Positions 37,746-61,674 of a DNA stretch of 64,000 nucleotides are shown in pieces. Source of the DNA: Citricoccus sp. K5. GTDB taxonomy: Bacteria; Actinomycetota; Actinomycetes; Actinomycetales; Micrococcaceae. The first letter of the stretch is position 1. Each line of letters begins with the position of its first letter. A program made the position numbers and the translations under genes. The stretch spans positions 2,078,985 to 2,142,984 of the forward strand of contig NZ_LR732817.1 in the NCBI RefSeq assembly GCF_902506195.1. The letters are read 5' to 3'. The notes under the pieces are model-generated. The model was given only the letters and a program-made list of their open reading frames with translations. It did not search any database and was not told where the DNA came from.

Positions 37746-37788
37746 CAGAGGGGCCCCGGCATGCGCGATGCATGCCGGGGCCCCTCTG
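37746..37788. terminator. Strong bidirectional terminator between M23 and groEL
   Basis: Perfect 19-bp arms (37746-37764 and 37770-37788) surround a five-base loop (GCGAT). It lies between convergent genes, 26 bases before the groEL stop codon. The stem is almost all G/C. Confidence 0.85.
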
Positions 37789-37814: not shown

Positions 37815-39470
<1,656 letters not shown>

Positions 39471-40779: not shown

Positions 40780-42249
40780 GTGGCTTCCTCCTCGCATGAC
40801 CCTCACTCCACCCACCCCGCTCCAGGCGGTCCGGCACGCGCCTCCGCAACGGACTCCACGCAGGAGGAGACGGTGCTCATGCCCGTGCTGACACCGGAGG
40901 GGTGGTCGTTGCTGAACTCGCTGGAGGGCTACCGGGAGTCTGAGGCACTGACACTGTCGACTCGCCTGCGGGGCGAGGGGCATGCACCGGAGCTGGTCTC
41001 GGCCGTGCTGACCCAGTTGAAGTTCCGTTCGAAGGCCGCGGCCAAGTTCGGGCCGTTCGCCGGGCACATGGTCTTCACGCGGGCCGGTCTGGAGCAGGCC
41101 ACGCGGATGAATGTGGCCGCGTTGCACGCCGGGCGTTTTGCTGCCGCCGGCGTGGGTTCCGTGGCCGACCTGGGCTGCGGGATCGGCGCCGATTCCATGG
41201 CCCTGGCCGCACTCGACCTGGAGGTCACCGCCGTGGAGCGGGACGAGACGGTGGCGGCCGCCGCGACGATCAACCTCATGCCGTTCCCGAATGCGTCCGT
41301 GGTCTGCGCCGACGCCGAGGAGTGGCTGGCGGCGCTGGCCGGGTCCGGTGGGGACGGTGCGGCCGTCACCAGCGCACGACCCGAGGGGTTCTGGCTCGAC
41401 CCGGCCCGACGCGTGGTGTCCTCGTCCGGCTCCTCCCGGGTCTTCGACCCCGAGGCCTTCTCCCCTCCCCTGTCCTTCGTGGAACGGCTGGCGGACACCG
41501 GGGCGCCCATGGGCGTGAAGCTCGGGCCGGCGTTGCCGCACGACTCCGTGCCGGCCGGTTGCGAGGCACAGTGGGTGTCCGTGGACGGGTCCCTGACCGA
41601 GGCGGTGCTGTGGTTCAACGCGCTGGCCCGCCCGGGAGTCCGCCGGTCGGCGCTGGTCTTGGGTGGCGGCTCTGTGGCGACCGGCGGTGACGGCGGGCCG
41701 GCAGCGGGAGGCGCGGGGCCGGCGTCGGGCGCTGAGGGTGGCAGGTCTCCGGCTGAGCTGTCCTCCGCCGCCGACTTCGGAGACTCCCCCACCGTTCCCG
41801 TGGCCGGGGCGGAGGGACTCACCGGCTTCCTGTATGAACCCGATCCGGCTGTGATCCGCGCCGGGCTCGTCGCGGACCTGATCGACCGGGAGTTCACCGC
41901 CGTGGGCGGGCGGCTGCTGGACGAGCACATCGCGTACTTCTGCGCGGATGATGCCGTGGAGACTCCCTTCGCGACGGGTTACCGAGTCCTGGAGGTCATG
42001 CCGTACAAGGTCAAGGGCCTGCGGCGCTGGGTCAAGGAGACCGGCGTGGGGCGGCTGGACATCAAGAAGCGCGGCGTGGATGTCACGCCCGAGGAGCTGC
42101 GGCGGCTGCTGATGTCCGGCCAGGGCAAAGGCGGCAAGGGCGGCAAGGGCGGCAAGGGCGCGAGCCGCCACGCGACCCTGGTGCTGACTCGCATCGGCGA
42201 GGACCGCGTGGCCGTGGTCGTCGATCCTCTGCGTGACACCCCACGCTGA
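40780..42249 (+). CDS. Class I SAM-dependent methyltransferase with THUMP-like C-terminal domain
   Basis: This is 489 residues from GTG 40780 (leaderless layout); an in-frame extension to 40699 is possible but unsupported. SAM motif I reads SVADLGCGIGADSMALA (about 128) with acidic VTAVERDE next. The C-terminal part (about 395-485) matches the THUMP-like domain of actinobacterial RNA/DNA methyltransferases (YFCADDAVETPFATGYRV, KKRGVDVTPEELRR). A Gly/Lys repeat (GKGGKGGKGGKG) interrupts it. The substrate is unknown. The stop codon TGA is the first three bases of a 58-bp palindrome. Confidence 0.85.
   Translation: MASSSHDPHSTHPAPGGPARASATDSTQEETVLMPVLTPEGWSLLNSLEGYRESEALTLSTRLRGEGHAPELVSAVLTQLKFRSKAAAKFGPFAGHMVFTRAGLEQATRMNVAALHAGRFAAAGVGSVADLGCGIGADSMALAALDLEVTAVERDETVAAAATINLMPFPNASVVCADAEEWLAALAGSGGDGAAVTSARPEGFWLDPARRVVSSSGSSRVFDPEAFSPPLSFVERLADTGAPMGVKLGPALPHDSVPAGCEAQWVSVDGSLTEAVLWFNALARPGVRRSALVLGGGSVATGGDGGPAAGGAGPASGAEGGRSPAELSSAADFGDSPTVPVAGAEGLTGFLYEPDPAVIRAGLVADLIDREFTAVGGRLLDEHIAYFCADDAVETPFATGYRVLEVMPYKVKGLRRWVKETGVGRLDIKKRGVDVTPEELRRLLMSGQGKGGKGGKGGKGASRHATLVLTRIGEDRVAVVVDPLRDTPR
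42123..42160. repeat. Tandem 9-bp units encoding Gly-Gly-Lys
   Basis: About four copies of a GGCAAAGGC/GGCAAGGGC unit sit within the methyltransferase gene and give a basic linker. They are in frame, so copy-number change would not break the gene. Confidence 0.7.
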
Positions 42250-42304
42250 GTGGTCACTTACCGTGGCCTATCACCGGCCATCCGCCACAGGATCTGACCA
42301 CCCA
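42247..42304. repeat. 58-bp palindromic element A1
   Basis: The ends are TGAGTGGTCA and TGACCACCCA, with a second paired block (CCGTGGC with GCCACAG). It is the same length as A2 and A3 and shares CCGCCAC-N4-x-CTGACCACCCA in its right half. Its first TGA is the stop codon of the methyltransferase gene; its right end lies 23 bases from the nuclease-gene stop. It may also act as a terminator between these convergent genes. Confidence 0.85.
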
Positions 42305-42327
42305 CGGGGACTGTGGTGCGCAGAGGC

Positions 42328-43275
42328 TCACTGCCCGAGCTCGCGCGAGGCGAATGACCGCCGCAGATCCCTGACGAAGGCGTCCCAGCCTCCAGGGGTG
42401 AAGACCTGCTTCGTCACCCTCAGGACGATCCACCCGTCGAACTGCATCCTCCGATCACGTTGGATGTCCCGGTCCCACTGCTTTGCGTCACTGCGATGGT
42501 GGTCTCCCTCGTACTGGACACAGATCTTGACGTCTTCCCACACCAGATCCGGAGGGACCCGCTCTCCGGTGGACAGGACAACCTCCGGGTTGACCACGGG
42601 CTCGGGGAATCCGGCGTCGACGATCCGGATCCGCAGCCGGCTCTCCTGTGGTGAGTCCGCGCCCTCCCGCAGCAATTCCACTGCCTGCCGCGCACGTCTG
42701 ATCCCCTTCACCTTCGTCCGTTTGGTGATGACATCCTTGATGTTCTGGATCGACGACAGCGGATGCATACCCGGCTCGCGCTCGGCCGTCGGTCCGTCGC
42801 TGCTTTGCAGGAGGCTGTCTCCCGCAGCCACGAGATGCTCCAGGCTCAGGTCCGTTCCAGCGAGTTGCACCCACGTCCAGGCTGGCTCGGTCACACGAAC
42901 ACCCGTGACGCGCTGGATGACGGCGTCCGTGGGGAGCAGATGACCTTGGACCCGTTTGCGGCGAGGTCGCGGTCCGGCTTCACGAGCCTTGGCCACGTGG
43001 ACCGGGTCGAAGGGCTTGCACCACGGGGGCAGCCACATCCCCCAGACAGCCGCGGCAGTCTCGTGGGTGAACACGCCCATGCCGTGGATATCCTGCAACG
43101 CCGCGAGGTGCGCCAGGTCATCGCGCGGGATGGATGACCGCCGACGGATGCCTCGGCTGACCACCTCAAGATCGGGATGCCGCAGGTGCTGTGCTTTCAA
43201 GCCCTCGGCGAGCACCTGCTGCGTCGAGAAGATTGACGGGATCTGGTCCGGCAGAGGTCGCTTCTGAGGGGGCAT
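42328..43275 (-). CDS. PDDEXK-like (Vsr/DUF559-type) protein bracketed by palindromes
   Basis: This 315-residue protein has an N-terminal part (about 1-160) with FTHETAAAVWGMWLP and WTWVQLAGTDLSLEHLVAAGD, reminiscent of AbiEi-antitoxin/DUF559 proteins. A C-terminal nuclease-fold part (about 190-310) has candidate catalytic Glu211 (ESRLR), Asp243 (PPDLVWED), Glu256 (VQYEG) and His259/260. It is clearly homologous to the protein at 60603 over its whole length. One 58-bp palindrome lies after the gene and two before it. Substrate and activity are unknown; recognition of the flanking palindromes is a hypothesis. Confidence 0.75.
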   Translation of the reverse strand: MPPQKRPLPDQIPSIFSTQQVLAEGLKAQHLRHPDLEVVSRGIRRRSSIPRDDLAHLAALQDIHGMGVFTHETAAAVWGMWLPPWCKPFDPVHVAKAREAGPRPRRKRVQGHLLPTDAVIQRVTGVRVTEPAWTWVQLAGTDLSLEHLVAAGDSLLQSSDGPTAEREPGMHPLSSIQNIKDVITKRTKVKGIRRARQAVELLREGADSPQESRLRIRIVDAGFPEPVVNPEVVLSTGERVPPDLVWEDVKICVQYEGDHHRSDAKQWDRDIQRDRRMQFDGWIVLRVTKQVFTPGGWDAFVRDLRRSFASRELGQ

Positions 43276-43412
43276 GAAGCCAGCCTGATGAGCCGCCGCG
43301 TTTCACGCTGATCACGCGGAACGAAATGTGGACGCACGGACGTAACCGGACAGCAGTGGAGTACTGAGCTATGGAGTCGTGAGTGCGGCGAAGACGGGGC
43401 TCCACCGCATCA

Positions 43413-43470
43413 TGAGTGGTCAGGTTGCGTGCCGAAACGCCCCGTGACCGCCACGGCAACTGACCACTCA
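43413..43470. repeat. 58-bp palindromic element A2
   Basis: The ends TGAGTGGTCAG and CTGACCACTCA pair perfectly, followed inward by GTTGC/GGCAA and CGTG/CACG pairing. It lies upstream of the nuclease gene (138 bases before its start) and shares the right-half block CCGCCACGGCAACTGACCAC with A1 and A3. Confidence 0.88.
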
Positions 43471-43496
43471 CCGCCCGAGGTCTCCTCCAGGCCCAC

Positions 43497-43554
43497 TGGG
43501 TGGTCAGTTGGTGCGCCGGTCTGCCCTGCGACCGCCACGATAACTGACCACCCA
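43497..43554. repeat. 58-bp palindromic element A3
   Basis: The ends are TGGGTGGTCAGTT and AACTGACCACCCA, paired perfectly over 13 bases. It is 26 bases from A2 in the same orientation and 16 bases from the stop of the siderophore ATPase gene. Confidence 0.88.
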
Positions 43555-43569
43555 CGGAATCGGAGGGGA

Positions 43570-44325
43570 TCAGTAGTAGACAGCCAGGCGGCTCTCGGGC
43601 CCCTCGATCACGCGCACCGGCGTGGAGAACACCCGCGTGAGCACCTCGTCCGTGATGATCTGTTCCGGGGTGCCGAACTCGGTGACCTTGCCGTCGTTCA
43701 TGGCGAGGATCCAGTCGGCATAGCGGGAGGCGAAGTTGATGTCATGCAGCACGATCACCACGGTGCGGCCCAGCTCGTCAGCAGCGCGGCGCAGCTGCTT
43801 CATCATCTGGACGGAGTGCTGCATGTCCAGGTTGTTCAGCGGCTCGTCCAGCAGCACGTAGTCGGTGTTCTGCGCCAACACCATGGCAACGTAGGCGCGC
43901 TGGCGCTGGCCGCCGGAGAGCTGATCCAGGTAGCGGTTCTCCAGCTTGTCCAGGTTGAGGAAGTCGATGGCCTCGGAGATGTACTTCTCGTCCTCCGCCG
44001 TCAGCCGGCCCTTGGAATAGGGGAACCGCCCGAAGCCCACCAGCTGCCGCACGGTCAGCCGGGTCACGAAGTGGTTCTCCTGGCGCAGGATGGACAGGAT
44101 CTTGGCCACGGCCTTGGACGGGGCGTTGACGATGTCCTGCCCGGCCACCTGGATCTGCCCGGCATCCACCTTGAGCAGCCGCCCGATCATGGTGAGGATG
44201 GTGGACTTGCCGGCACCGTTGGGGCCCACCAATGCAGTGATCCCGCCCTGGGGCAGTTCCACGCTGACGGGCCCGATCTGGGTCTCGTCGCCGTAGCTCT
44301 TCTGAACGCCGTCGAGTGTGATCAC
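43570..44325 (-). CDS. Iron-siderophore ABC transporter ATP-binding protein
   Basis: This 251-residue ATPase has Walker A GPNGAGKSTILTM, Q-loop ILRQENHF, signature LSGGQRQRAYVAMVLAQ, Walker B YVLLDEPLNNLD and the switch His in VVIVLHDINFA. The GTG at 44325 overlaps the permease stop (GTGA); the long upstream extension of this frame is the shadow of the permease. The family energizes ferric-siderophore uptake through the two permeases upstream. Confidence 0.93.
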   Translation of the reverse strand: MITLDGVQKSYGDETQIGPVSVELPQGGITALVGPNGAGKSTILTMIGRLLKVDAGQIQVAGQDIVNAPSKAVAKILSILRQENHFVTRLTVRQLVGFGRFPYSKGRLTAEDEKYISEAIDFLNLDKLENRYLDQLSGGQRQRAYVAMVLAQNTDYVLLDEPLNNLDMQHSVQMMKQLRRAADELGRTVVIVLHDINFASRYADWILAMNDGKVTEFGTPEQIITDEVLTRVFSTPVRVIEGPESRLAVYY

Positions 44326-60232: not shown

Positions 60233-60602
60233 GGAGGCGGCCTTCCTTCGGTGCGGTGGTGTGCGCGCATGCGGTCGTGTGCGCGCTGCGTCGGTGCCGT
60301 GCGTGCATGCGGTGGTGCGGGTCCAAGGATTCCCTCGCGACCCCCTATGCCCGGCGCCGGACCGCGGGCGTCCGGTTTCACGCAGGCGGTGACGGGCTGG
60401 CGGCTGATGGCCCCTGCAACTGAGTCGCAGAAATTGCCCCAATTCAACGGGTGTGAAGGGGTAGCTTCTGCGACTTAGCTGCAGGCGGGGGTGCGGGTGC
60501 GGATGCAGGCAGGCTACTGCACAGGTAACCGATGCGGTGGAACCCTCCACCGCAGCCCTTGCCTGCCTCCCGCTGCCGGCACGGGTGTCCGTCAATGGGG
60601 TG
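60233..60602. other. 370-bp gap upstream of flhA with palindrome B1 and direct repeats
   Basis: No gene is recognizable. The stretch contains palindrome B1 (60413-60485). Near flhA (about 60250-60320) there are two imperfect copies of a GTGCG-x-GCATGCGGT-x-GTG unit. It must contain new promoters for flhA and for the nuclease-like gene; no convincing -35/-10 pair is seen. Confidence 0.5.
60413..60485. repeat. Palindromic element B1
   Basis: CCTGCA and TGCAGG bound the element. Inside, CTGAGTCGCAGAA pairs with TTCTGCGACTTAG and GCCCC with GGGGT around a 17-base loop. It shares CAACTGAGTCGCAGAAATT with B2 at the other side of the nuclease gene. Confidence 0.85.
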
Positions 60603-61592
60603 ATGAGACCCCACAACCCACAGCCCGTTCCGGACCTCTTCACTCTGGACGAGGGTCGCCGTCTCCAGTTCTCGCGCAAGCGCCTCTACTACTCAGGGCT
60701 GGTCATCCCCCACCGCGGGCTGCGGACCGCTCCTCTGCATCCGTCTGCAGCAGACCGGCACAGCAATTCCGAGATCGCGCGGATGCTGAGTCGACAGGAT
60801 CCGTCACTGATCATCAGTCACCAGACCGCTGCCGAGACCTGGGGACTGTGGTTACCGGCACGGATGCGTACCACCCGAATTCATCTGTCCCGGGTCCGTC
60901 GTACTGCCGGCATCCCCCGGTACCTGAACACCGTGGGGCATTTCATCCGCCCCCTGGAGCGTGATGTGAGGAAGATCGGCGGCTTCCACATCACGTCGCC
61001 GGAGTGGACCTGGGCGGACCTGGCGTCGCAGGGACTCACCGTGGAGGAACTCGTGGCGGCCGGCGACGCCCTGTTGCAGCGACCCGACGGATTTCCCCGA
61101 TCCGAGAGGTTCATCGGCAACAACCCGCTAGCCACCAAGGAGTCCATCGTCGAGGTTGTCAGCCGGCGCAAGGGTTCTCCCGGCATCAGGAAACTGCGGG
61201 TGGCTGTGGAACTGCTGCGCGAACGAGTCGATTCGGAGAGGGAGTCCAGGCTCAGATTGAAGATGGTCAACGCCGGCTGGGATGAGCCCATCGTGAATCC
61301 TCGACTGCTGTTCGCCGACGGCTGGGAATGCACTGTTGATCTGGCCCTGCTGTTGTGGCGCGTCGCCCTGCAGTACGAGGGCAGGCACCACTTCACGCTG
61401 GAGAAGCAGTACCGCTCTGACATGAACCGGGACGAGCAGATCCGGGCGCGCGGCTGGGAACCTATCCGGGTGGACTCCGAGGTCTTCACCAGACAGGGGT
61501 GGCGGAACTTCGAGCTCCGCCTTCACCGCGCCATTGAACGCCAGCAACGTCAACCGAAGGACTCGTGGGTTCCCTTCGAGATCGGCTCCTGA
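60603..61592 (+). CDS. PDDEXK-like (Vsr/DUF559-type) protein inserted in the flagellar operon
   Basis: This is 329 residues from ATG 60603, chosen to align with the start of the homologue at 42328; an in-frame GTG at 60537 would add 22 residues. It shares ISHQTAAETWGLWLP, WTWADLASQGLTVEELVAAGD and the nuclease-fold half. Candidate catalytic residues are Glu214 (ESRLR), Asp246 (TVDL), Glu259 (LQYEG) and His262/263. It is oriented against the flagellar genes and bracketed by palindromes B1 and B2. Its function is unknown. Confidence 0.75.
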   Translation: MRPHNPQPVPDLFTLDEGRRLQFSRKRLYYSGLVIPHRGLRTAPLHPSAADRHSNSEIARMLSRQDPSLIISHQTAAETWGLWLPARMRTTRIHLSRVRRTAGIPRYLNTVGHFIRPLERDVRKIGGFHITSPEWTWADLASQGLTVEELVAAGDALLQRPDGFPRSERFIGNNPLATKESIVEVVSRRKGSPGIRKLRVAVELLRERVDSERESRLRLKMVNAGWDEPIVNPRLLFADGWECTVDLALLLWRVALQYEGRHHFTLEKQYRSDMNRDEQIRARGWEPIRVDSEVFTRQGWRNFELRLHRAIERQQRQPKDSWVPFEIGS

Positions 61593-61610
61593 ATGCCTCC
61601 TCGCCCCGAC

Positions 61611-61674
61611 CAACTGAGTCGCAGAAATTAACCCCTCTCCACGCCGATCCGGGGTAATTTCTGCGACTCAGTTG
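61611..61674. repeat. Palindromic element B2
   Basis: The arms CAACTGAGTCGCAGAAATTA (61611-61630) and its exact complement (61655-61674) are 20 bp long, with further CCCC/GGGG pairing. Read from flhB, the right arm supplies the last Asn codon and the TGA stop. It lies between convergent genes and may also terminate transcription. Confidence 0.92.

Follow-up and report, generated by a model that had tools for sequence, protein, structure and literature searches.

The nuclease gene and its palindromes

The window analysed here, a stretch of 64,000 nucleotides from Citricoccus sp. K5 (C1:2078985-2142984 of the 3.88-Mb genome, G000), contains a gene for a predicted two-domain nuclease that is bracketed by three palindromes of one sequence family, f1. 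The gene is a single open reading frame (ORF) of 315 amino acids on the minus strand (42328..43275) and, as a preliminary description of the locus had proposed, it is the single gene between the palindromes. The same description had correctly placed the unstranded palindromes A1 (42247..42304), A2 (43413..43470) and A3 (43497..43554), each 58 bp long and ending in TGRGTGGTCA/TGACCACYCA. The further block which it had assigned to all three, CCGCCAC-N4-A-CTGACCAC, is present in A2 and A3, whereas A1 has a T in place of the A. A1 is located between the nuclease gene and a convergent gene of the Thump_like/methyltransferase type, the TGA stop of which forms the first three bases of the palindrome. 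A2 and A3 are located upstream of the nuclease gene and also follow the stop codon (43570-43572) of a co-directional gene for an ATP-binding cassette (ABC) transporter ATPase, by 99 and 15 bp, respectively. Because of these distances, A2 and A3 are explicable by plain 3'-end placement, and the earlier argument that promoter-side copies speak against terminators is lost. The ATPase is also matched by a generic model, AAA_21, in the description of which AbiEii is mentioned.

The structure model of the 315-amino acid protein (predicted local distance difference test, pLDDT, 95.5) suggests an AbiEi-like half joined to a nuclease half resembling Vsr and I-Bth0305I. The AbiEi-like domain would comprise residues 8-203 (42667..43254, minus strand) and the nuclease-like domain residues 208-313 (42337..42654, minus strand), the latter with the conserved residues E211, D243, H260, and D270. 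When proteins from five loci were scanned with Pfam, the models returned were MTES_1575, DUF559, and AbiEi_1 besides a weak unrelated one, and no transposase domain (Y1/HUH) was found among them. In the available part of PMC3710099 the Vsr-type domain MTES_1575 is mentioned by name only. PADLOC reported AbiEi matches in the N-terminal part, and a search of NCBIfam gave no match. The closest named relative is from Citricoccus (80%); where family genes are named at all, they are designated "hypothetical", "endonuclease domain-containing", "DUF559" or "AbiEi family".

Two additional f1 palindromes, E4 (57 bp, C1:56787-56843) and E5 (58 bp, C1:3329831-3329888), are found elsewhere in the genome, both between convergent unrelated genes. 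The pattern GTGGTCA-N25-55-TGACCAC occurs at eight places genome-wide, five of which are f1 by eye (A1-A3, E4, and E5) and three chance-like. A reversed-pattern control across the whole genome gave no match, by which a chance origin of the f1 copies is ruled out. RNA folding of both strands of the five elements (ten folds) yielded z values of -2.0 to -5.7 versus shuffled sequences, and an Rfam search returned a single sub-threshold match outside the palindromes. The preliminary description had proposed a search for the 58-bp consensus in this genome and in relatives; G000 has the five copies, and the sequence itself is nearly private to it. A scan of genome contigs for f1 with exact ends gave four matches, all from other taxa and in metagenome-assembled genomes (records of the own genome were possibly left out).

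The looser pattern GTGGTCA...TGACCAC matches in 82 of 198 genomes of relatives; most of these matches look chance-like, with little internal pairing, and those of genus g14 are a real, separate family. In this genus, G020, G049, G072, and G093 have five to eight matches each and G110 has none. The matches are mostly palindromes of 51-52 bp, GTGGTCACGACACGCCG...CGGCGTGTCGTGACCAC, one copy of which adjoins an AbiEi-like/Vsr-like family gene in G020 and one in G072. What seems to be another kind of repeat was seen on several contigs of G185 (family f20; e.g., L080), where a double palindrome with GTGGTCAAATTGACCAC as its building block is present in 15 copies, with a spacing of about 158 bp between several of them.

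Gene-specific palindromes across loci

The family gene was detected in 56 of the 70 genomes of the bacterial family, representing 26 of 32 genera, and in 32 of 119 genomes of a phylum-wide sample. Flanks were compared at 86 loci, consisting of 80 listed rows taken mainly in order of score, hence not at random, and of six loci inspected beforehand. The top-scoring ungapped repeat common to the upstream (-400 to +40) and the downstream region (-60 to +400) was counted as shared when it scored at least 16. Such a shared repeat is found at 64 of the 86 loci versus one of 513 cross-locus pairs and four of 194 control ORFs, namely further long ORFs in those stretches; omission of the six pre-seen loci and of L249 and L253, which had been chosen for a known palindrome, leaves 57 of 78. 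Inverted repeats with an arm score of at least 12 occur on both sides of the gene at 49/86 loci versus 4/194 control ORFs and have a median span of 61 bp (quartiles about 57-64). At the same arm score, a downstream palindrome is present at 57 and an upstream palindrome at 59 of the 86 loci, the latter mostly about 50-240 bp ahead of the gene start. The residues E211, D243, H260, and D270 are kept at all 86 loci. Loss of catalytic residues as the cause of a missing shared repeat was rejected, since they are intact at 22 out of 22 such loci.

Among 59 more distant loci, 36 have a shared repeat (controls, 0/344). This figure is composed of 23/31 in genus g77 (about 6 Mb) and 13/28 elsewhere, the latter being an upper figure because some repeats are direct-repeat-like (e.g., L270, L280). 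One palindrome common to all DUF559-type genes was considered and rejected; each locus has its own sequence. The preliminary idea of palindromes clustering at such genes holds at the level of the protein family, in which every gene has a palindrome of its own, and does not hold for those copies that lie at the 3' ends of unrelated genes. Over the 64 loci with clear palindromes, protein identity is correlated with arm similarity (Mantel r 0.288; the highest value in 2000 permutations was 0.11). In 14 pairs with more than 60% protein identity, 11.4 of 14 arm positions match on average, compared with 6.4-7.8 in the remaining pairs.

G000 itself carries three paralogues (at 60.5-61.6 kb of the window, in L025, and in L026), all flanked by palindromes, the sequence of which differs from set to set. 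In the window, the paralogous AbiEi-like/Vsr-like gene (60537..61592, plus strand; 36% identity; start codon uncertain, with an alternative near 60603) is located between an upstream palindrome of family f2, CAACTGAGTCGCAGAAATT... (60413..60485), and a downstream one of the same family (61611..61674), neither with an assigned strand. This second cassette (60413-61674) sits between two minus-strand genes, which we take to be flagellar export-like. A more distant AbiEi-like gene (362 amino acids; L119 3854-5167, in G005), excluded from the 86 loci for lack of a tblastn match, has CNCCCCTTCTCGGGACAG... palindromes on both sides, so that the association may reach past the family as sampled. Elsewhere in the window, a 43-bp hairpin with a fully paired outer arm of 16 bp (37746-37788) is found just downstream of a minus-strand gene (37815-39410), presumably groEL-like; it is probably a terminator.

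Dispersed copies, arms and centres

When 16 palindromes were searched in six genomes, the matches listed corresponded to 97 distinct places, 94 of them in the genome of the respective family (G001 and G002 being pooled for family f5) and the other three in sister species of the same genus. Among these matches, 68 places lie away from listed nuclease genes, at least 17 of them belonging to one family in G052, and up to 19 copies are listed for a family. According to heuristic gene calls for 30 copies, 16 are located between convergent, ten between tandem, and two between divergent genes, with two inside an ORF call; 25 of the 30 have a predicted gene 3' end no more than 80 bp away. No nuclease ORF was detected at E 0.01 near solo copies in 20 stretches of G052 and G049 (L349-L368). 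In six of these (L349-L354), two to three solo palindromes stand 0.3-1.6 kb apart around ordinary-looking genes, which would be either cargo or coincidence.

The arms of the palindromes are far more uniform than the centres. For the G052 family (L201; 15 of the 19 listed copies, compared in an ungapped 61-bp window with which gapped BLAST agrees on net length), identity between copies is 93% in the two 24-bp arms and 43% in the 13-bp centre, for which 27% is expected by composition. In the G049 family (12 of 14 listed copies) the values are 92% and 57%, respectively. At arm pairs that vary on both sides, complementarity is matched by only one of 2000 shuffles in the G052 family; the signal is weaker in the G049 family (72 of 2000). 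At five sites common to G001 and G002, the f5 copies of the two genomes are 89% identical in the centre and 98% in the arms, versus 39% and 94% between copies at different sites. Centres match within sites and not between them; therefore, the centre is kept per site by descent, and the arms are uniform across sites. This is the trace expected from selection or from a protein acting on the arms.

Proposed replacement of one palindrome family by another

The corresponding methyltransferase-ABC locus of G001 and G002 carries a nuclease gene of about 50-52% protein identity to that of G000, next to an ABC gene that is 93-96% identical at the DNA level. The palindrome on both sides of their gene is a different one, f5 (TTGAGTCTGGAGGGATTCAC...). 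At the E5 locus, too, f1 of G000 corresponds to f5 in the sister species, and the E4 site of G001 lacks a palindrome of this kind. G000 retains f5 copies at sites common to G001 and G002 (L371, L381), besides weaker matches at C1:682425 and C1:215118. From sequence comparison, we read this as a replacement of an f5 pair by an f1 pair in the G000 lineage, which would have left the f5 copies behind as orphans. With regard to the earlier proposal to test whether repeats are absent where the gene is absent, these copies persist in G000 without their cognate gene at that locus. The surrounding intergenic DNA is no longer alignable. At the L348 site the palindrome is missing from G004; there and at the E5 site, the intergenic DNA has diverged too far for exact insertion boundaries to be placed.

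Proposed mechanism and alternatives

The palindrome-nuclease element suggested by the preliminary description is supported by these data. In the reading preferred here, with a probability of roughly 0.55, the predicted nuclease binds its own palindrome of about 60 bp and would cut at or near it, gene and palindrome evolving as a pair in the manner of repetitive extragenic palindromic (REP) sequences and RAYT genes. A protein dimer would sit on the palindrome, one AbiEi-like half reading each arm, and the nuclease half would cut at or near the palindrome, close to its centre. Subsequent repair or copying would spread or homogenise the arms. Gene 3' ends would be tolerated landing places, where the hairpin may double as a two-way 3'-end structure. 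AbiEi binds 23-bp inverted repeats, about 49 bp including the spacer (PMC3985639), and I-Bth0305I occupies its target, nearly 60 bp long, as a dimer (PMC3943268); because of these site sizes, a dimer of an AbiEi-nuclease fusion would fit a 61-bp palindrome.

Several points weigh against this reading. The shared-repeat threshold is missed at 22 of the 86 loci, including the A1-A3 locus itself (score 15), and some of these have clear but mutually different flank palindromes (e.g., L200, L206); the control genes are long ORFs and not curated genes. The Mantel correlation could be explained by shared descent of gene and flanks. With regard to the protein, the column of H260 is a tryptophan in I-Bth0305I (3r3p) in the single sequence alignment obtained, the AbiEi structural match has a root-mean-square deviation of 5.5 A, and Foldseek with the whole model gave no match with E < 0.001. 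Recent copying of whole elements would not be expected to give common arms with differing centres. Finally, f5 stands in G000 without an f5-type gene at the corresponding locus, and its occurrence in three sister species means that families are not strictly genome-private.

Alternatively, the protein could be an AbiEi-like regulator and the palindromes its operators, the upstream copy repressing the gene itself, the dispersed copies controlling their neighbours, and the nuclease domain having another role. The modelled AbiEi half, the usual distance of the upstream palindromes from the gene start, and autoregulation of AbiEi via inverted repeats, as described in PMC3985639, would agree with this. 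It is nevertheless unlikely, considering that the downstream palindrome is as regular as the upstream one, that dispersed copies favour gene 3' ends over promoters (two of 30 between divergent genes), and that the nuclease residues are invariant.

Distinctly unlikely is a role in genome maintenance, by resolution or trimming of cruciforms at the palindromes, or in defence, with the palindromes as self-marks, in both cases without spreading. Vsr acts on mismatched DNA, the doubly variable arm pairs of the G052 family stay complementary, and PADLOC places its AbiEi matches in the N-terminal part, all of which would suit such a role; but the arm sequence is conserved beyond mere pairing, the palindromes are private to each paralogue, and the G049 family shows less of the pairing signal. 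Mobilisation of miniature elements by a separate transposase, with the nuclease gene as passenger or controller, is very improbable. Solo copies with near-identical arms do resemble miniature inverted-repeat transposable elements or REPINs, and the six stretches with clustered copies around genes lacking a nuclease ORF could be understood in this way; however, the palindrome families track the nuclease. That the palindromes merely terminate transcription in both directions or stabilise 3' ends as hairpins, their closeness to nuclease genes being without meaning, is highly improbable in spite of their stable hairpins, the position of A1, E4, and E5 between convergent genes, and the general proximity to gene 3' ends, because it leaves gene-specific flanks, cross-site arm conservation, and the distribution of families over genomes unexplained, and no T-tract terminator was found in 42000-43800.

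Returning to the nuclease acting on its own palindrome, a wider proposal is put forward tentatively, at slightly less than even odds: that AbiEi-Vsr nucleases, widespread among actinobacteria and with several members in a genome, form an undescribed selfish or domesticated class, each member cutting, spreading, and homogenising a private palindrome of about 60 bp, and the palindrome type switching with the nuclease. This would be a second invention of the REP/RAYT type, made by homing-type nucleases. No description of the association was found in the open-access literature; subscription papers lie outside this scope and may contain one. Family genes come with a likely DNA substrate attached and, if the proposal is true, would provide a large natural set of enzymes together with their targets, the recognition sites being both long and diverse. 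They would also show that a nuclease of no relation to RAYT can drive REP-like repeat families, and part of the actinobacterial intergenic palindromes taken for terminators might be accounted for.

Comparison with known systems

In its predicted AbiEi fold, the protein resembles the AbiEi antitoxin of the type IV toxin-antitoxin system AbiE (PDB 6y8q; PMC3985639). Unlike in AbiE, neither neighbour at the A1-A3 locus is an AbiEii nucleotidyltransferase, and unlike AbiEi, the domain is fused to a nuclease domain, with palindromes also downstream and dispersed. The modelled catalytic fold is Vsr-like, as in the EDxHD homing endonuclease I-Bth0305I (PDB 3r3p) and in Vsr (PDB 1cw0), from both of which the DNA-binding half differs. 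Unlike in I-Bth0305I, the presumed site brackets the gene, which does not interrupt it, and the location is chromosomal and not in a phage intron.

The closest parallel in organisation is that to REP/REPIN-RAYT "REPtrons", as portrayed in PMC8266576, PMC3116915, and PMC3733652: palindromes adjoin a single enzyme gene and are dispersed extragenically in the same genome, the arms are conserved around a variable spacer as in REPINs, and repeat and protein diverge together. The systems differ in that RAYT is an HUH Y1 transposase, compared with the AbiEi-like and Vsr-like enzyme predicted here; in that neither end of the five f1 copies, inspected by eye for this family only, has the GTAG/CGTC tetranucleotide of REP; and in that the palindromes are of about 61 bp, with several gene-palindrome pairs per genome and at least 19 copies in the largest family. 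The enzyme and, in the case of f1, the missing GTAG tag place the system outside RAYT. The REP/RAYT-like layout around a protein of a different fold, as suggested in the preliminary description, is supported by the comparative data and the structure model, and the likeness is one of layout and behaviour.
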